From Rhodospirillales bacterium (GTDB lineage Bacteria; Pseudomonadota; Alphaproteobacteria; Rhodospirillales; Shumkoniaceae): a stretch of 64,000 nt of DNA. This document shows positions 2,983 through 49,759 of the stretch, piece by piece. Position 1 is the first letter of the stretch. Every line of letters starts with the position of its first letter. The notes below the pieces were generated by a model. It was not told where the DNA came from and did no database searches. It saw nothing but the letters and a program-made list of their open reading frames with translations. A program made the position numbers and the translations under genes. Where the stretch lies: assembly GCA_016776725.1 (NCBI GenBank), contig JADHSV010000011.1, positions 1-64,000 of the forward strand. The letters run 5' to 3'.

Positions 2983-5900
2983 ATGATCCGCAGTGCCGAT
3001 GAACAAAAAAATGAACTTATTCGAGGTCTCGTTGAAGAAACAAAAGATCGCCTGGGCGGTCAAAAAGGAGCGCTCGCCGCGCAATTCGTCGGACTGTATT
3101 TTGACCGGGTACCGCCGGCGGATATCGTTGAACACGGGCATACGGCGCTTTATGGATCGGCGCTCGCCCACTGGAAATTTGCCACGCAGCGATCCCCCAA
3201 TGTTGCCAAGGTGCGGGTCTACAACCCCAGTCTGGAAGAACACGGCTGGAAGTCCGATCACACGGTGATCGAAATTTCCAATGACGATATGCCGTTTCTG
3301 GTCGATTCCGTTGCTGCCGAAATTGGCCGCCGCGAAATCCCCATTTATCTAATTATCCACCCGGTCATCAATGTTCAGCGCAAAGACGGCGCCATTGTTG
3401 CACTCGAAGGCGTGGACGAAGAATCCACCAATATGGCGGGCGAATCCTTCCTGCACATCGAAATCAGCCGCCAATCGTCGTCGCGTCTCGATGAAATACG
3501 CAGCGGAATCGAGGGTGTGCTGCGTGATGTGCGCACCACTGTTGGCGATTGGCAGGAATCGCGGGAAAAAGTGCTTGCCGTCGCGACAGAGCTGGAAAAA
3601 CGGTCCGGGCCCCTGGCCGCAGACGAAGCACGCGAAGTTTGTGAATTCCTGCGCTGGATTCACGACAACAATTTCACATTATTGGGTTATCGCCAGTTCT
3701 CGGTCAGTGGCGCCGGCGCGACCGCCAAGGTCAAAATCGTTTCCGAAGGCGGTCTCGGTCTGCTTCGTGACCCGGACGACTACGTCTACGATGAATTCAC
3801 CGACCTTGATAATTTGCGGCCCGAGGTTCGGGCCTTCGTCAGCCGGCCCGAGGCGCTCGCCATCAACAAGACCGACCGGGTGTCCACGGTTCACCGGCCG
3901 GTGTACATGGACGCAATTTCCATTCGCCGCTTCGGCCCCAAAGGCAATGTCGTCGGCCAGCATACGTTCGTCGGCTTATTCACCTCTTCGGCCTATAACC
4001 TAAGCCCACGCGCGATTCCGCTTCTGCGGCGCAAAATTGAGCGCGTCATCGAACGCGCCGGCCTGCCGCCCAACAGCCACGATGGTAAGGCGCTCAGCAA
4101 TATCCTTGAGAATTTCCCCCGCGACGAATTGTTTCAGGTTTCCGAAGATCACCTGTTGAACACCAGCCTGGGGGTGCTGAACCTTCAGGAACGCCGCCGC
4201 GTGGCCCTGTTCCTGCGCCGTGACGATATTGAACGGTTTGTGTCGTGCCTCGTGTATATTCCACGGGATCGATTCGACACCGACCTGCGTCGCCGTATGC
4301 AAGGGATCATCGAAAAGGCGTTCGACGGCCAACGGGCCGACTGGTACGTCCAGCTAAGCGATTCGCCCCTGGCCCGCGTTCACATGTTCTTTCGCACCAC
4401 CCCCGGCGCTCTTCCCGACTACGACGCCGACGAGATCGAGGGTGAACTGGTTGCCGCCGCGCGCTCGTGGACCGATCAGATGGAAGACGCCCTGGTCGCG
4501 GCCCATGGCGAGGAAAAGGGTCTGGCACTGAACCAGCGATATCACCGGGCGTTCCGCTCGGGTTATCGCGAGCGCTTCGACGCCGAAGCCGCGGTTGGCG
4601 ATATCGAATTGGTCGAGGCGGCACTGGCCGGCGATGATCTTTGCATGAGTCTGCGCCGTCCGCTGGAAGCTTCTGAAAACGAGGTTCGTTTCAAGCTTTA
4701 TCACCCGGACACGCCCATACCGCTTTCCGATGTTTTGCCCATGCTCGAACACATGGGCCTCAAGGTGGTTGACGAAATTCCCTTTGCCATTCGCCCCGAG
4801 GACGGGCGCATGGCGATGATGCATGATTTCGGACTGGAAAGCCGTGATGGGCGGCCCATCGATCTGGGTGCAGTGCGCGATAAATTCCAGGGTGCGTTCG
4901 AAGGCGTGTGGCGTGGCGAGATTGAAAGCGACGCCTTCAACGGCCTGGTCGTACGCTCCGGACTATCGGCACGCGAAATCGTTATTATCAGGGCATATTG
5001 CAAATACCTGCAGCAGGCGGGCATTGCCTTTTCGCAGTCCTATATGCAGCAGACGCTGCTCGAAAACCCCAGCCTTGCGGCTCTGATTGTGCAGCTTTTC
5101 ACAGCTCGTTTCGATCCGGCCGGTGGCAAGGGTGCGGCGAAAAAGGCGGCGGCGATTCTCAAGAATCTCAATGCCGGACTCGACGCTGTCACCAATGCCG
5201 ATCAGGACCGCATCCTGCGCCGCTTTATCAATCTGGTCCAATCGACCCAGCGCACCAACTTCTTCCAACCGGGCGCGGACGGCGAACCCAAGTCCTACGT
5301 TTCGTTCAAACTGGATAGCCGGGCTATCGACGAATTGCCCCTGCCCCGGCCGCTGGTTGAAATCTGGGTCTATTCGCCGCGCATGGAAGGTGTTCATCTG
5401 CGCGGCGGCCGCGTTGCGCGCGGCGGCATTCGCTGGTCGGACCGGCCGGAAGATTTCCGCACCGAAATTCTTGGCCTGATGAAGGCCCAGATGGTCAAAA
5501 ACGCGGTCATCGTTCCGGTCGGATCGAAGGGCGGGTTCATTCTCAAACGCACGACGCCCCCGGGTGACCGCGAGGCGTGGCTTGCCGAAGGAATCGCGTG
5601 CTACAAGATCCTCATGCGCGGTCTCCTTGATGTCACCGACAATCTCAAGGGCCAGGATCTGATCGCGCCTCCCGAAGTCGTTCGGCACGACAACGACGAT
5701 CCCTATCTGGTTGTCGCCGCCGACAAGGGCACTGCGACATTTTCCGATATCGCCAACGGCGTATCGATCGAATACGGTTTCTGGCTGGATGATGCCTTCG
5801 CTTCGGGCGGCAGCCAGGGCTACGATCACAAGGAAATGGGCATTACCGCCCGCGGCGCGTGGGAATCGGTCATGCGCCATTTCCGCGAAATTGGCATGAA

Positions 5901-41928: not shown

Positions 41929-42930
41929 TCATCCGGTAACGGGTGATTCAGCCCGCAACGGGCGGGCCAGCAATGCAGAAATGGTTTCGCCGATATCGGC
42001 GCCCGTATTCAAGATATCGTTGACCGCTTGGGCGATGGGCATTTCAACGCCCAGCGATCTTGCCAGCTCACAAACCGATGAGGCCGTGAACACACCTTCG
42101 GCCACGGAATTGCGCGCCCCCAAAACGGCGTCAAGCGCCTCGCCTTTGCCCAGGGCCACGCCCAGCGAAAAATTCCGAGACTGCATGGCGTTGCAGGTCA
42201 GCGTGATGTCACCCAGACCGCATAGCCCCAGAAATGTTTCTGGCTTCGCGCCTTTGGCGATGCCCAGGCGAACAATTTCCGCCAACCCCCGTGTAATCAA
42301 CGCGGCCCGTGCGTTGTCGCCCAGCCCGCGCCCCTCGACGATGCCGCAGGCGATGGCCAGCACATTCTTGACCGCGCCGCCCACTTGCGCGCCGACCATG
42401 TCGCGTGACTGGTAAATTCTGAACTCGGGCGTTCGCAGGGCTTGCGATAGAGCCTCGCCAAGATGGTCGTCGGCGCAAGCCAGAGTGAGTGCGGCGGGCA
42501 GCTTGCGGGCAACTTCGGAAGCAAACGTGGGGCCGGTTAGGATCGAGATCGGTGCGCCCGGAAGGGCTTCGGCCACCACTTCGCTCATGAGCGCACCCGA
42601 TTTTTGTTCGATCCCCTTGGCGCAAATCACGACCGGGTTCGGCGTATCGAACAGGGCGCAGACGTCGCGAAGCCGTTGCGATGGAGCTGCCAGAAGGATG
42701 GCATCGGCGTCGACGGCCTGTTTAATGTCGCTGGTGGCCCGAATCGCCGGATCCAATGCCACGCCCGAAAGGTAGGCCGTATTTTCGTGACGGCTGTTGA
42801 TCGCATCGGCGACATCGGTTTCATACGCCCACACAACGACCTCGCGCCCGGCTCTGCGGGCGGCGGCGGCCAGCGCCGTTCCCCAGGCTCCGGCTCCAAT
42901 GACGCCGATTCGCTTCAAGTCCGGTCCCAC
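41929..42930 (-). CDS. gpsA: NAD(P)H-dependent glycerol-3-phosphate dehydrogenase
   Basis: This makes sn-glycerol-3-phosphate from dihydroxyacetone phosphate for phospholipids. The 333 residues carry GVIGAGAWGTALA (dinucleotide loop), CAKGIE, LTGPTFASEVA and GLGDITLTC in family order. The start is GTG at 42930, whose bases overlap the upstream gene's stop (TAGTG); no ATG lies nearby. The tsaD-gpsA-YciI-EVE order is common in alphaproteobacteria. Confidence 0.96.
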   Translation of the reverse strand: MGPDLKRIGVIGAGAWGTALAAAARRAGREVVVWAYETDVADAINSRHENTAYLSGVALDPAIRATSDIKQAVDADAILLAAPSQRLRDVCALFDTPNPVVICAKGIEQKSGALMSEVVAEALPGAPISILTGPTFASEVARKLPAALTLACADDHLGEALSQALRTPEFRIYQSRDMVGAQVGGAVKNVLAIACGIVEGRGLGDNARAALITRGLAEIVRLGIAKGAKPETFLGLCGLGDITLTCNAMQSRNFSLGVALGKGEALDAVLGARNSVAEGVFTASSVCELARSLGVEMPIAQAVNDILNTGADIGETISALLARPLRAESPVTG

Positions 42931-43676
42931 TAGGCTTCAGCCAGAAACGCGCGGTACGCGTCACCGATGGCTTCGACGGATTTTGCGTACAGCCGCTCGC
43001 CCTTCTCCGGGGACGCCAACGCCGAATTCGAACCTATACGCCCGTCGGGGAACCGCTCGCGGAAGGTGTCGGCGCCGAAGAACGATCCCTGGGGCGCCAC
43101 CTCGGGATCCAGCTTGCCGTCGCGGATGTTGGCGGCGTCGGCGAACTGGGCGACGGCCACTTCGGAGGCGGATGCGTGCGAGCCATCGGCCGTGCCGAAC
43201 ATTTCGCGCCCCATGGCTGGCAGCGGATCGAACTGCCACCAGTTCAGGGCCTTGCACCGCAGATCCGGCGTGTCGGCGGCGCCTGCCTGGCGCACGTCGC
43301 CATAAATTTCCGAAAAAGCCGCCTGCAGCGAGGCCAGATTTCCGCCATGCCCGTTGACGAACAGGAAACGACGGAAGCCGTGCGCGGCCAGCGACAACAC
43401 GTAATCGCGAACCACCAAAACCAAAGTCGAGGGCTTAAGCGTCATGGAGCCGGGAAAGCGCATGTGATGCTCGGACATACCGACACCGATGGTCGGTCCG
43501 ACCATGGCGTTTTCGGCCTCGCCCACGCCCTTGGCGATAACGTCGGCGCAAATGGTATCGGTGCCGATCATGCCGATGGGACCGTGTTGTTCGGTCGACC
43601 CGATGGGCATGATGATGCCGTTCTTGTCGCGTAAGTAAGTTTCTACCTCGGCCCACGTGCTTTGATGCAGAAGCAA
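42930..43676 (-). CDS. Creatininase family amidohydrolase
   Basis: This encodes 248 residues. The metal-site motifs are STEQHGP (E29, H31), GTD (D40), and VNGHGGN further on, the full set of the creatininase/MftE superfamily. The start is TTG at 43676 with a strong AAAGGAGGA 5 bases upstream; no ATG fits. Substrates in the family vary (creatinine, formamides, peptide tails); nothing here specifies one. It stands between tsaD and gpsA and overlaps gpsA by one base. Confidence 0.88.
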   Translation of the reverse strand: MLLHQSTWAEVETYLRDKNGIIMPIGSTEQHGPIGMIGTDTICADVIAKGVGEAENAMVGPTIGVGMSEHHMRFPGSMTLKPSTLVLVVRDYVLSLAAHGFRRFLFVNGHGGNLASLQAAFSEIYGDVRQAGAADTPDLRCKALNWWQFDPLPAMGREMFGTADGSHASASEVAVAQFADAANIRDGKLDPEVAPQGSFFGADTFRERFPDGRIGSNSALASPEKGERLYAKSVEAIGDAYRAFLAEA

Positions 43677-43742: not shown

Positions 43743-44801
43743 TCACGCCTTGACCCCCGCACCCGCCGCCGGCGGCGCATCCGGGTCCAGCGGCCAGCGG
43801 GGCCGGGGCCTGAAGTCCAGTCCGTCGGTTAATCCGCGGCGCAGGCGTTCCAGCCCGGCCCAGGCGATCATGGTTCCGTTGTCGGTGCACAGCCGTTGTG
43901 GCGGCGCCACCAGTTCCATGCCTTCGGTTTCGGCCAGTGCGGCCAGCTCGCCCCGCAAGTACGTATTGGCCGCCACGCCGCCCGCCACCACCAGGGCCTT
44001 TGCCTGCGGATGGGTTTGGTGAACCATGCGAATGGCGCGGGCGCAGCGGTCGCGCAGGACATCCCCCGCGGCGGCCTGAAAGGAGGCGCAAATATCGGCA
44101 ACGTCGGCGTCGCGCAGCGGTCCCTCGGGCAGCGCCAAAATCGTCTGACGCACCGCCGTTTTCAGACCCGAAAAAGAAAAGTGGCAGCCGGGACGCCCGC
44201 GCAAGGGACGAGGCAGGGCAAAGCGTTCGGGATCGCCGCCTGCGGCGGCGGCTTCGACGGCGGGTCCGCCCGGGTAGCCGAGCCCCAGCATCTTGGCCGT
44301 TTTGTCGAAGGCCTCGCCCAGCGAATCGTCAATTGTGGTGCCCAGCCGCTTGTACTTGCCCACCGCTTCCACCACGAGAAGCTGGCAATGGCCGCCCGAA
44401 ACCAGCAGCAGCAGGTAGGGAAATTCCACACCGCCCGTGAGGCGCGCGCTCAGCGCGTGACCTTCCAGATGATTGACGGCCATAAACGGAAGTCCGTGGA
44501 CGGCGGCAATGGCCTTGGCCGTCATCACGCCGACCATAACCCCGCCGATAAGTCCGGGGCCGGCAGTTGCGGCGACTCCGTCCAGCTGATCAAACGCCAG
44601 GCCGGCGCTTTGCATGGCCCGCTTGACCTGATCATCGGCATTTTCCAGATGCGCGCGCGCTGCAATCTCCGGAACGACACCGCCGTAGGGCCGGTGAAAT
44701 TCCGTTTGCGACAGCAGGGATTCGGCCAGAATTTCGCGCCCGTCGTTTACCAGCGCGGCGGCGGTTTCATCGCAACTGCTCTCGATGCCGAGAACGATCA
44801 T
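43743..44801 (-). CDS. tsaD: tRNA N6-threonylcarbamoyladenosine synthase, TsaD subunit
   Basis: This transfers the threonylcarbamoyl group to A37 of ANN-decoding tRNAs together with TsaB/TsaE, which are not in the window. The 352 residues include [28 protein letters not shown] (metal His), [11 protein letters not shown] (second metal site), [11 protein letters not shown] and [13 protein letters not shown], all typical. The last about 25 residues are Pro/Arg-rich. It is divergent from hemC, with 82 bases between the starts. Confidence 0.97.
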
Positions 44802-44883
44802 AAAAAATCCTCTTGTCGAATCGGTGCGGAACTTTACTCTGTCGATCCGTCGTAAACCACAGTTCCGAACAATTGCAGCAAAT

Positions 44884-45819
44884 ATGGCATCTCATCCCGT
44901 CGTTCGCATAGGCACCCGCGGAAGCCCTCTTGCCTTGGCTCAGACCCACGAAACCCGTGACCGGCTGATGGCTGCCGATCCGGCGCTGGCCGATCCCGGT
45001 GCGCTCGACATCGTCGTTATCAAGACGACGGGCGACAAGGTGCAGGATCGCGCGCTTTCCGAAATTGGCGGCAAGGGCCTTTTCACCAAGGAAATTGACG
45101 AGGCCATGCTGGATGGCCGAATCGATCTGGCCGTCCATTCGGTAAAGGACGTACCAACCTGGCTGCCCGACGGTATTGAACTGGCTTGTATTCTGCCGCG
45201 CGAGGATCCGCGCGATGTGTTCCTCAGCCGCAAGGCCGATGGAATTGACGGGTTGGCGCCGGGAAGCGTCGTCGGCACGGCATCCCTGCGCCGTCAGGCG
45301 CAAATCCTGAATTTGCGTCCCGATCTGAAGGTCAGCGTCTTTCGCGGCAATGTCCAAACCCGTATGCGAAAACTGGACGAAGGCGAGGTTGACGCCACTT
45401 TGCTGGCATTGGCCGGATTGAAGCGCCTGGGGCTGGCGGATATGGCCACATCGATCATCGACGTGAGTGACATCCTACCCGCCGTGGGGCAAGGCGCGGT
45501 CGGCATCACATGCCGGGCGGACGATGCGCGCGCCCGCGACCTGCTGGCCAAAATTCATGATGCCGAAACGGCTGCCTGCGTGGCTGCCGAGCGGGGATTG
45601 CTTGAAGAACTGGATGGATCGTGCCGAACGCCGATTGCAGCGCTTGCAACCGTGTCGAAAGACGGGGTTCTGGCTTTGGACGGGTTGCTGGCCCGTCCCG
45701 ACGGAAGTACGGTCCTGCGGGCGCGCCGGGAAGGCGACCCCGCGAACGGTATCGAGCTTGGCCGTGACGCCGGGCGTGAACTTGCCCAGCGTGCCGGTCC
45801 CGGGTTTATTGATTGGTGA
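44884..45819 (+). CDS. hemC: Hydroxymethylbilane synthase
   Basis: This polymerises four porphobilinogen molecules to hydroxymethylbilane. The 311 residues carry [13 protein letters not shown] at the start, [21 protein letters not shown] and [11 protein letters not shown], in which C247 holds the dipyrromethane cofactor. I use ATG 44884; an in-frame ATG at 44785 overlaps the divergent tsaD start. The ribosome site is weak. It is followed by the hemD-containing gene, whose start lies 11 bases after the hemC stop. Confidence 0.96.
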
Positions 45820-45830
45820 AGACGCGACCC

Positions 45831-47768
45831 ATGCACGTTCTCGTAACCCGACCGGTTCTGGATGCCGGCCCCCTGATCGCACTGCTCGGCGAACGTGGCA
45901 TCGAAGCCAGCGCCGAGCCGCTGATTTCCATTGAAATAAAGGAAAACGCCAAGCCGAAACTTTCCGGCGTGCAGGGGCTTCTGGCGACCAGCGCCAATGG
46001 AATTCGGGCCTTTGCGGCGCTTGAGCCATCGCGCAGCCGTATTGTTTATGCCGTCGGCGATGCCACGGCCAAGGCCGCCGCCGAAGCCGGATTCGAGAGG
46101 ATCGAAAGCGCAGGCGGTGACGTTGAAACGCTTGCCGCACTCGTGGTCAAACGTGCCGATCCCTCGGCCGGGGCGCTTTTGCACATTGCCGGTACGAAGC
46201 TTTCCGGAAATCTGGGAAAGATGCTCACGGAAAAAGGGTTTACCTATCGCCGTTCGGTTATGTATGAAGCGACCGCCGTTGACAGATTTACCTCCGAGAC
46301 GGTGGATGCGATACGCCAGGGGCGGATTGACGGTGTTCTCTTTTTCTCTCCCCGCACGGCGGAAACATTTGTTACTCTGGTGCGAAAATCACGATTGGTG
46401 CGGGCCTGCGGCGCAATTAGCGCCTATTGCCTTAGCCAAGCCGTTGCCGAACGCGCCGGTGCGATACCTTGGCGTGACGTTCATGTTGCCAAGCGGCCCG
46501 ATCAGGGCGCGCTTCTCGACTTGTTCGGTACGAAAACTGATGGATTCTTGAGCGAAATGTCCGATTCTCAAAAGAAAGCCGAAAAGGCCAAAATCATCGA
46601 TGACGCGGCGCCGGTTACGCCGGACACGAAAACGTCTGCGGATGATCAACCCGCCGCCGTCGATGTGGCGCGAACCCTCAGCCGGCGCAGCATCGTTCCG
46701 GCGATCATTATCTGGTCGCTGTTGGTGGTTGCCGTCCTTGCCGGAGCGACCTACGCCGCAAGGCCTTTCTGGGAACCCTATACCGATGCCTATTTTCAGG
46801 CACTGCAGAAGGATCCGTTCCAGGATCCGCGCATGAGCAGTCTTTCGGACCGTCTCGCGGCGCTTGAAAACCTGGCCGAGGAAAGCAAGAAATCCAATGA
46901 CGCGTTAACGGAACTTGAGGGCCGCCGGGCCGAGATAAGTGATCGGGTGGGGGCTTTGGTCGCCCGCGTCGGCGACCTGGAAGGATCGCTGGCCGCCGTC
47001 AAAACCATGGTCGAGGCGACGACGTTGCCCCTGGAAGCCGATGATGCGCGTAAATCCCTTGATGAACTGCAAAAGCGGATTGCGCGGCTGGAAAGTTCGG
47101 AGACGGTCTCCGTGCTGGAGGCGGACGTAGAAAAAATTGGCGTCGAAAGCGACCGAATTTCGGCTTCGGTCAAGGACATTGCTTCGCGTATCCAGGGTCT
47201 TGAAAAAGCTGATGATTTGGCGGTGGGCGCGAGCGGCAAGGCGCGCGATACGATCCTTGCCGCCGGACGGCTTCGTGAAGTTTTGAGGACGGCGTCGCCG
47301 TTTGCCGACGAACTTCAGGTGTTTCGCGATGCGGTGGCCGATCAGGTCGATCTTACCAAGGTGGCCGACGATCTAGCTCCGTTCGCGGCATCCGGAATTC
47401 CGCAGCTGGCAACTCTGCGTGAGCGTTTCGGCGGGGTCGCCAGAAAAATCGTCGTGTCCGACCTGCTTATGGAAGGTGAAGGATGGATGGCGACGGTGGT
47501 CAATCGACTTTCTTCACTGGTCAGCGTTCGGCGTACCGGCGCCGATGCGGGCGAAGACACCATTGACGGGGCGGTGGCCGCGGCTGAACGTGCGGTCGGG
47601 GAAGGTGACCTGATGGGGGCCGTTGCCGCGCTTCAGTCCCTGAAAGGGGCTGCGGCTGAGGCGGCGGCGCCGTGGTTGGCCGATGCCCGCGCCCGAACGA
47701 TTGCCGAGCGTTCAATGGTTGTCCTGCACGTCCACGCGGTCTCTTTGATGTCTCCGGCCGGGAAGTGA
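45831..47768 (+). CDS. hemD: Fused uroporphyrinogen-III synthase (HemD) and mitofilin/Mic60-like membrane protein
   Basis: One uninterrupted frame of 645 residues. Residues 1 to about 238 form HemD (MHVLVTRP, LLATSANGIRAF, VYAVGDATA, LFFSPRTAETF), the enzyme closing hydroxymethylbilane to uroporphyrinogen III. After about five residues comes MSDSQKKAEKAK (Met243), a charged linker, one membrane segment (about 288-310), a long coiled coil (about 340-470) and a C-terminal helical domain as in alphaproteobacterial mitofilin homologues. Normally these are two neighbouring genes between hemC and hemY. Internal initiation at Met243 (46557) is possible but the upstream GAGCGAA is weak. A start at GTG 45816, overlapping the hemC stop, is an alternative. 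The fusion could also result from an indel near 46530. Confidence 0.85.
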   Translation: MHVLVTRPVLDAGPLIALLGERGIEASAEPLISIEIKENAKPKLSGVQGLLATSANGIRAFAALEPSRSRIVYAVGDATAKAAAEAGFERIESAGGDVETLAALVVKRADPSAGALLHIAGTKLSGNLGKMLTEKGFTYRRSVMYEATAVDRFTSETVDAIRQGRIDGVLFFSPRTAETFVTLVRKSRLVRACGAISAYCLSQAVAERAGAIPWRDVHVAKRPDQGALLDLFGTKTDGFLSEMSDSQKKAEKAKIIDDAAPVTPDTKTSADDQPAAVDVARTLSRRSIVPAIIIWSLLVVAVLAGATYAARPFWEPYTDAYFQALQKDPFQDPRMSSLSDRLAALENLAEESKKSNDALTELEGRRAEISDRVGALVARVGDLEGSLAAVKTMVEATTLPLEADDARKSLDELQKRIARLESSETVSVLEADVEKIGVESDRISASVKDIASRIQGLEKADDLAVGASGKARDTILAAGRLREVLRTASPFADELQVFRDAVADQVDLTKVADDLAPFAASGIPQLATLRERFGGVARKIVVSDLLMEGEGWMATVVNRLSSLVSVRRTGADAGEDTIDGAVAAAERAVGEGDLMGAVAALQSLKGAAAEAAAPWLADARARTIAERSMVVLHVHAVSLMSPAGK

Positions 47769-47773
47769 CGGCG

Positions 47774-49153
47774 ATGCTGCGAACCTTCGGATTTGTCATC
47801 GTTATTGCCGTCCTTGCGTTTGGCGCAGTGTGGTTTGCCGAAAGCCCCGGCGAGGTCAGCCTGGAATGGCAGGGCTGGCGGGTGGATACGTCATTTGCGA
47901 TTTTGTTCGCGGCGGTGGCCGTTATCGCCATCATCGTCGCGTTCGTTTACCGGATGTGGATGTTTTTGCGTTCGGCGCCGGGACGGATGTCGGCGTCCCG
48001 CCGGGAAGCTCGGCGGCGGCGTGGATATCTTGCCCTGACCCGTGGCATGGTCGCCGTTGCCGCCGGTGACGCGGGTGAAGCGAAAAAACAGGTTCGCCGT
48101 GCCGATGGGTTGCTGAGCGATCCGCCCATTACCATGCTTCTTTCGGCTCAGGCGTCGCAGTTGGCGGGCGACGAGGCGGCCGCCGGGAAGTTTTTTTCGG
48201 CCATGCTGACGCGGCCCGAAACAGAATTTCTGGGGATCAGGGGACTTCTGACACATGCCCTGAAGGGCAATAATCGGAAAAAGGCTCGGGAACTGGCGGA
48301 AAGGGCTTTTCGTCTGCAGCCGAAAAGCGACTGGGTGGCGTCCAATTTACTTGATCTGCAAGTGCGCGGTTCGGCCTGGGCCGATGCCCGCGACACCCTG
48401 GAACGCTCGGTCAAAAACAAATTGGTGGACGCCAATGACGCCAAACACCGGTTGACGGTGCTGGATTATCTGCTGGGTCTGGAAGCCTTGGGGGATGGCA
48501 ACGAAGGCGAGGCCCTGAAAATTCTGAAAAAGGCGTGTGACCGGGAACCCGGGTTCATTCCGGCCGTTGTTTGCATGGCCGGGCATCTTGTTGACCGGAG
48601 CCGTGCGGGGCGCGCCGCGACGCTAATCGAACGGGCATGGTCCCACAACCCGCATCCCGACCTTGTCGCTGTATACTGCCGCGCCCGCGGGGCCGACGAT
48701 CCGCTGGAGAAGGTCAAAGTGTGCGAGCGTCTGGCCAAATCCAACCCGGATCACCCGGAAAGCCATTTGACCATCGCCGCGGCGGCGCTGGAGGCGAAGC
48801 TGTGGGGCGAAGCCCGCCGCCACCTGGAAAACGCGGTTGGTGTCGATGCGTCGGCACGCGTTTGCCGACTGATGGCGGAACTGGAGGAATCGGAACACGC
48901 GAACGCGCAGGCGGCCCGCGAATGGCTGGTGCGCGCCTCGAAAGCCGATCCCGATCCGGCCTGGGTGTGCGGCGATTGCGGAAATGCGGTTTCGGAGTGG
49001 ACGGCGCTGTGTGCCAATTGCGATACGTTCGCCGGTTTTTCCTGGATTACGCCGCCCCATGTGGTGCGGTTGCTTGAAGGGGCCAAGGAGGCTGCGCAGG
49101 CCCTTTCGGGGCCCGATGGCGCGCCCGATACAAACCAGACTGCCGAGTCCTAG
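47774..49153 (+). CDS. hemY: HemY-type TPR membrane protein
   Basis: This encodes 459 residues. Two N-terminal membrane segments (about 5-22 and 40-62) bear the HemY_N pattern (VSLEWQGWRVDTS between them), followed by TPR-like helices. The C-terminus has a Cys4 cluster, WVCGDCGNAVSEWTALCANCD, probably a zinc ribbon, seen in alphaproteobacterial HemY proteins. It is not the protoporphyrinogen oxidase that shares the name. The role is unclear; it accompanies heme-synthesis genes and may organise enzymes at the membrane. ATG 47774 lies 5 bases after the preceding stop; a longer upstream frame overlaps that gene and is rejected. Confidence 0.9.
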   Translation: MLRTFGFVIVIAVLAFGAVWFAESPGEVSLEWQGWRVDTSFAILFAAVAVIAIIVAFVYRMWMFLRSAPGRMSASRREARRRRGYLALTRGMVAVAAGDAGEAKKQVRRADGLLSDPPITMLLSAQASQLAGDEAAAGKFFSAMLTRPETEFLGIRGLLTHALKGNNRKKARELAERAFRLQPKSDWVASNLLDLQVRGSAWADARDTLERSVKNKLVDANDAKHRLTVLDYLLGLEALGDGNEGEALKILKKACDREPGFIPAVVCMAGHLVDRSRAGRAATLIERAWSHNPHPDLVAVYCRARGADDPLEKVKVCERLAKSNPDHPESHLTIAAAALEAKLWGEARRHLENAVGVDASARVCRLMAELEESEHANAQAAREWLVRASKADPDPAWVCGDCGNAVSEWTALCANCDTFAGFSWITPPHVVRLLEGAKEAAQALSGPDGAPDTNQTAES

Positions 49154-49381: not shown

Positions 49382-49759
49382 ATGGGTCGGGTCGCTCGTA
49401 TATTCATTGGTTTTGCGGTTGCCGTTAGCATCGTGCAATCGGCGCAGGCAAATTCTCTGCGGACTGATCGGTTGCTGGAAAAATGCAACGGCGCGGACGG
49501 AAAACCGCAGGTGAGTGCTGCCTATTGTGTCGGATGGATGTCCGGCTTTGTGGATGCGTTGAAGGCCGTTCGCCGTGCAGTCCCTGCGTCGACCCCTGAA
49601 ACAGCGCAAGCCCTCGTGTGCCCTCCCCCACCGGGGATTTCAACCCATCTGGCTATTCAACTATTCCTGAAATACGCTGCCGACCATCCGCACGACCGGC
49701 ATGAGGACGCCGGCACAACGGTGCTCATGGCGCTGCGCAAGGCGTTTCCGTGCGCATAA
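49382..49759 (+). CDS. Rap1a/Tai-like secreted small protein
   Basis: This encodes 125 residues. A signal peptide (about 1-23, ...QSAQA) is followed by a small helical domain with paired cysteines: C...YCVGWMSGFVDAL in the first half and CPPPPGISTH...FLKYAADHPHDRHEDAGTTVLMALRKAFPC at the end. This matches the Rap1a/Tai family, whose founding members are periplasmic immunity proteins against type VI amidase effectors. GGGGGAAG precedes the ATG. No effector or T6SS gene is nearby, so an immunity role is doubtful here. Confidence 0.78.
   Translation: MGRVARIFIGFAVAVSIVQSAQANSLRTDRLLEKCNGADGKPQVSAAYCVGWMSGFVDALKAVRRAVPASTPETAQALVCPPPPGISTHLAIQLFLKYAADHPHDRHEDAGTTVLMALRKAFPCA

Follow-up and report, generated by a model that had tools for sequence, protein, structure and literature searches.

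A fused hemD-mic60 gene in a Rhodospirillales genome belongs to a recurrent alphaproteobacterial arrangement with a putative internal Mic60 start

In heme synthesis, the uroporphyrinogen-III synthase HemD acts after HemC. The product of HemC, hydroxymethylbilane, forms the wrong isomer by spontaneous ring closure if it is not taken up by HemD. Mic60 is the core of MICOS that was inherited from alphaproteobacteria; it shapes membranes and builds the cristae of mitochondria. A fused HemD is known from betaproteobacteria, where the enzyme is joined to HemX, a coiled-coil protein that crosses the membrane once and is encoded at the corresponding position of the operon. For Alphaproteobacteria, the passages of PMC7641849 on this locus describe an operon hemC-hemD-mitofilin-hemY whose genes are adjacent and separate, as well as a conserved unit tsaD-gpsA-yciI-EVE with adjoining tsaD and gpsA. 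Ferrochelatase is bound by MICOS in yeast and in mammals, where MICOS also supports heme synthesis, and in yeast that overexpresses ferrochelatase this synthesis is disturbed by the loss of Mic60 (PMC9133952, PMC9163361). SpaO in Salmonella is an example of an internal in-frame start that gives two isoforms (PMC13059759). In the literature searched, we found no explanation for the presence of mic60 in the bacterial heme operon.

Here, we analysed a locus on a 64,000 nucleotide stretch of a Rhodospirillales genome (hereafter the window) in which hemD and mic60 share one reading frame (Table 1). Genes, order and domains correspond to the operon in PMC7641849: a hemC / hemD-mic60 / hemY cluster lies head to head with tsaD-gpsA. 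However, hemD and mic60 are separate in that operon but form one frame in the window, and the operon passages of that paper do not mention a fusion. The adjacency of hemD and the mitofilin gene in the alphaproteobacterial heme cluster, stated in a preliminary description of this DNA, agrees both with these passages and with the relatives that keep separate genes. In the window, hemC ends 11 bases before the fused gene, and the hemY-type gene probably starts near position 47774, while its longest frame begins at 47672. A creatininase-family gene (42930-43676) is located between tsaD and gpsA, and a scan of two frames of the window beyond gpsA detected no EVE domain. On the other side of the cluster, a small protein (49382-49759) matches Rap1a immunity proteins (8e-18) and adjoins a large hybrid histidine kinase.

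Table 1. Features of the hemD-mic60 locus (coordinates refer to the window)
Feature	Coordinates	Strand	Basis
tsaD	43743..44801	-	Pfam TsaD 1.4e-93; divergent from hemC
hemC (porphobilinogen deaminase)	44785..45819	+	Pfam Porphobil_deam 1.8e-81, Porphobil_deamC
hemD-mic60 fused gene, 645 aa	45831..47768	+	open frame; HEM4 and Mitofilin matches
HemD domain, residues 1-232	45831..46526	+	HEM4, pLDDT, Foldseek
A-run 46533-46536 and out-of-frame TGA 46538-46540	46533..46540	+	sequence
disordered linker, residues 236-287 (~52 residues)	46536..46691	+	pLDDT < 50
internal in-frame ATG, residue 243	46557..46559	+	matches the start of Mic60 proteins from separate genes; ribosome-binding site weak
single membrane helix, residues 289-309	46695..46757	+	hydropathy, AlphaFold2 helix
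coiled-coil region, residues 333-460	46827..47210	+	long helices in AlphaFold2 model
mitofilin domain, helical, residues 467-640	47229..47750	+	Pfam Mitofilin 443-636; 7pv1
hemY-type TPR membrane protein	47774..49153	+	Pfam HemY_N 1.9e-26, TIGR00540 3e-38

The fused frame runs without interruption from an ATG at 45831 to a TGA ending at 47768 and encodes 645 amino acids; at most, the frame could extend upstream to a TTG at 45813. Pfam matches above the cut-off were obtained for HEM4 (residues 15-229, 9.4e-36), whose profile is covered over its full length (positions 3-230 of 231), and for Mitofilin (residues 443-636, 3.9e-13). In an AlphaFold2 model built with 35 fused homologues, HemD residues 1-230 reached pLDDT values mostly above 90, and Foldseek detected the two-domain fold of solved HemD structures (4es6, 3re1 and 1jr2; 2e-10). 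When a profile of the fused proteins was compared with the MIC60-MIC19 crystal construct 7pv1, the mitofilin part matched (5.4e-10). The protein thus has the layout of Mic60, with one helix N-terminal to a coiled coil and a mitofilin domain at the C-terminus. RR directly precedes the membrane helix, and according to the positive-inside rule the N-terminus of Mic60 should lie in the cytoplasm. That is, the frame, the HEM4 and Mitofilin matches, AlphaFold2 and Foldseek confirmed the proposed single frame for HemD and a mitofilin-type protein, and hydropathy, AlphaFold2, Pfam and 7pv1 supported the proposed succession of linker, one membrane helix, coiled coil and C-terminal domain. The two parts had further been described as joined almost without a linker. 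While there is indeed no break in the frame, about 50 disordered residues separate HemD from the membrane helix.

The fusion is not confined to the genome of the window and recurs across Alphaproteobacteria. We drew an even sample of 60 relatives over the order, 54 of which had a HemD that was readable in its surroundings. With the window included, 17 of the 55 HemD-bearing genomes encoded HemD and Mic60 in one frame, and these belonged to eight families. We added 60 further loci of the order, which were picked partly for long frames and give no frequency estimate, and 80 named loci; among 168 distinct loci, the genes were fused in 73 and separate in 84, with 11 loci undecided. In a phylogenetic tree built from HemC, HemD and the mitofilin domain, fused and separate states changed 19 times, and at least 13 of these changes are forced by well-supported branches, while the direction (gain versus loss) is not given by the tree. 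Outside the order, about 19 fused genomes were found among 153 Alphaproteobacteria sampled over many families. Fused genes are also present in cultured strains, namely Rhodospira trueperi ATCC 700224, Terasakiella brassicae, Magnetospirillum moscoviense, Sneathiella litorea, S. chungangensis, S. sedimenti, Dongia deserti and Ferruginivarius sediminum. In the family of the window, two genomes are fused (G001 and G003) and one has separate genes (G002), so the fusion is dispensable even there. Where the genes are separate, hemD and mic60 nearly always adjoin; Mic60 often follows the stop directly and in the HemD frame, or there is a four-base overlap, and a lost stop or a small indel therefore suffices for fusion.

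The draft metagenome-derived genome SI053_bin87 contains two different HemD-Mic60 fused genes (L151 and L152), which are either a true pair or the result of a mixed bin. In the one-contig genome G323, the hemD region (L253, 1969-3875) is seen as an inverted pair where the contig starts and once more close to its other end; this pattern resembles a palindromic end or a fold-back of the assembly.

Each fused genome of the even sample contains a single HemD; this includes the one-contig genome G019, which retains HemE. A second, free HemD was found neither in these fused genomes nor in the window genome; weak second matches in G007 and G052 stayed below the cut-off. In addition, the fused HemD domains rank among the best HEM4 scores of the even sample. 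With only one HemD per fused genome of this sample and such high scores, the fused HemD must work, unless a protease frees it, and we infer that the fused form probably is the functional enzyme in these genomes. HemE (uroporphyrinogen decarboxylase) is retained in eight of eight near-complete genomes checked. It gave no match in the 74% complete window genome (G000), where its absence is probably a gap in the assembly.

Most fused frames retain an in-frame ATG at the position of the free Mic60 start, followed by similar sequence. In the window, the stretch from 46557 reads MSDSQKKAEK, compared with MTEESKKDEK and MAEEPKKPED at the starts of the separate Mic60 proteins of L211 and G002, respectively. 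Across 38 genomes, pairing with the 16S tail was stronger for linker ATGs than for other linker codons (-5.19 versus -3.20 kcal/mol, p = 5e-5), and the same was found in a second, separate set of 19 genomes (-5.14 versus -2.95, p = 5e-5), but related genomes are not independent, and both p values overstate the evidence. The best linker ATG per genome (-6.03) was as strong as the hemD starts (-6.15). If the internal start were a mere relic, the bases upstream of it should resemble the rest of the linker; the stronger pairing observed instead argues against this. A site that contains GGGAG is kept at a fixed spacing before the ATG (GTG in one) of nine Sneathiella-group frames, and the neighbouring codons vary. 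For a putative internal start, this fixed site is cleaner evidence than the p values. The Sneathiella-group frame with GTG (L208, frame 3355-5530) retains the ribosome-binding site, and its eight relatives have ATG.

Among 49 fused frames, an internal ATG is preceded by a good site in 25 and by a weak site in 13; in five, a good site is present but only before GTG or TTG, and six lack a usable internal start. The window belongs to those with a weak site (pairing energy -3.1), and the use of its internal start is uncertain. In the six frames that have lost the start, Mic60 can come only from the fusion. One product or two had been put forward as alternatives, whereas the sequences of many relatives argue for both a fused protein and free Mic60. 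We read one frame as giving a membrane-tethered HemD-Mic60 and, often, free Mic60 as well, and the loci read as a putative series from separate genes via a fused frame with a second start to a fused frame only.

We therefore consider it probable that hemD-mic60 is a genuine fusion whose product is a membrane-tethered HemD-Mic60, accompanied in many lineages by free Mic60. The flexible linker would connect HemD with the N-terminus of Mic60 on the cytoplasmic side, and the single helix of Mic60 would span the inner membrane and place coiled coil and mitofilin domain in the periplasm. In this way, Mic60 would hold HemD at the inner face of the membrane, with the enzyme in the cytoplasm. The former Mic60 start would persist in frame, together with its ribosome-binding site, in many fused lineages, so that free Mic60 is also made, while in others the internal start would be lost and the fusion be the only product. 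The likely gain would be that HemD, and perhaps its operon partners, are kept at defined places of the membrane, close to the late steps that are bound to it. We infer one stable protein with this topology and an active HemD; a tethering of heme synthesis to the membrane would follow from this anatomy.

Could the fusion be an artefact? One added A in the run at 46533-46536 would bring the TGA at 46538-46540 into the HemD frame. This TGA is present one frame off, as the preliminary description had noted, and the separate HemD of the relative L211 ends at the corresponding place. Since the window genome is an incomplete, metagenome-derived draft, an assembly or sequencing indel in the A-run might have joined two genes, as had also been suggested. 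We regard this as very improbable. The comparison with related HemD/Mic60 loci, proposed earlier as a check, revealed fusions in both G001 and G003, and the codon distance from HemD to the internal ATG in G001 is exactly that of the window, in frame. The three genomes cluster on the tree, albeit with a support of 77-79 only, long frames cover 94% of the window, and cultured strains have fused genes as well. The identical junction length in G001 and the grouping with G001 and G003 thus make an indel unlikely, and the fusion in the window appears to be genuine. Long frames might also arise by chance read-through in high-GC DNA. We rejected this explanation since, among relatives' frames closing within the fetched DNA, the tails after the HemD domain were bimodal: they were either short (3-28 aa) or continued in frame into Mic60 (313-547 aa), with none between, and the fused frame is therefore more than chance.

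A genuine fused frame might still exist on paper only if a protease cuts the disordered linker and leaves HemD and Mic60 as two proteins in the cell. The length, variability and disorder of the linker would suit such cleavage, as would the Mic60 starts retained in most fused genes, but the six of 49 fused genes without a usable internal start do not, and inspection of the linkers by eye revealed no conserved cleavage motif; we judge this reading improbable. Neutral read-through, in which co-transcribed neighbours occasionally lose a stop and the fusion is tolerated, with tethering of no benefit, is possible but on balance rather unlikely. It would be favoured by the adjacency of hemD and mic60 in nearly all relatives with separate genes, where Mic60 often follows the stop in the HemD frame, and by the frequent switches between fused and separate states. 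However, the fusion is retained in about one third of the relatives and across whole groups such as Sneathiella, and the cell must at minimum tolerate that an essential enzyme is tethered to the membrane.

A genuine fusion that tethers HemD to the membrane, the reading we favour, is a variant of a known operon arrangement, and the combination of its Pfam domains is plain to see. We found no report of the fusion, its recurrence or the internal start in the literature searched, to which the principal Mic60 papers did not belong, and a prior mention is possible. The recurrence and the retained internal start bear more on the relation between Mic60 and heme synthesis than the fusion alone: many gains or losses of the fusion suggest that HemD and Mic60 work together, and if the internal start is used, annotated protein lengths conceal a second product. 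The fused frame is predicted to link an essential heme-making enzyme physically to a membrane organiser.

Compared with known systems, the window protein shares with alphaproteobacterial Mic60 and with the mitochondrial MIC60 of MICOS a helix near the N-terminus, a coiled coil and a C-terminal mitofilin domain. But unlike in these proteins, its cytoplasmic N-terminus bears a whole enzyme. By analogy, the bacterial fusion may be a covalent counterpart of the link between MICOS and ferrochelatase. More speculatively, Mic60 might have been a heme-synthesis scaffold before it became a crista organiser, with one gene giving both tethered HemD-Mic60 and free Mic60 in many alphaproteobacteria and with early tetrapyrrole synthesis at Mic60-shaped membrane sites prefiguring the MICOS-ferrochelatase link; we put this forward only tentatively. 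The betaproteobacterial HemD-HemX fusion differs in its partner, which is HemX (PF04375) there and mitofilin in the window, and HemX gave no match in the genome of the window. The profile comparison of HemX with Mic60 yielded 95% for the full length but only 7% without the coiled coil, and a kinship of the two is at most possible. With the SpaO gene, the fused hemD-mic60 has in common a long and a short product that share the C-terminal part, the short one being a prediction here. In contrast to SpaO, the short product would itself be an entire second protein, and two pathways would be united in the long one.
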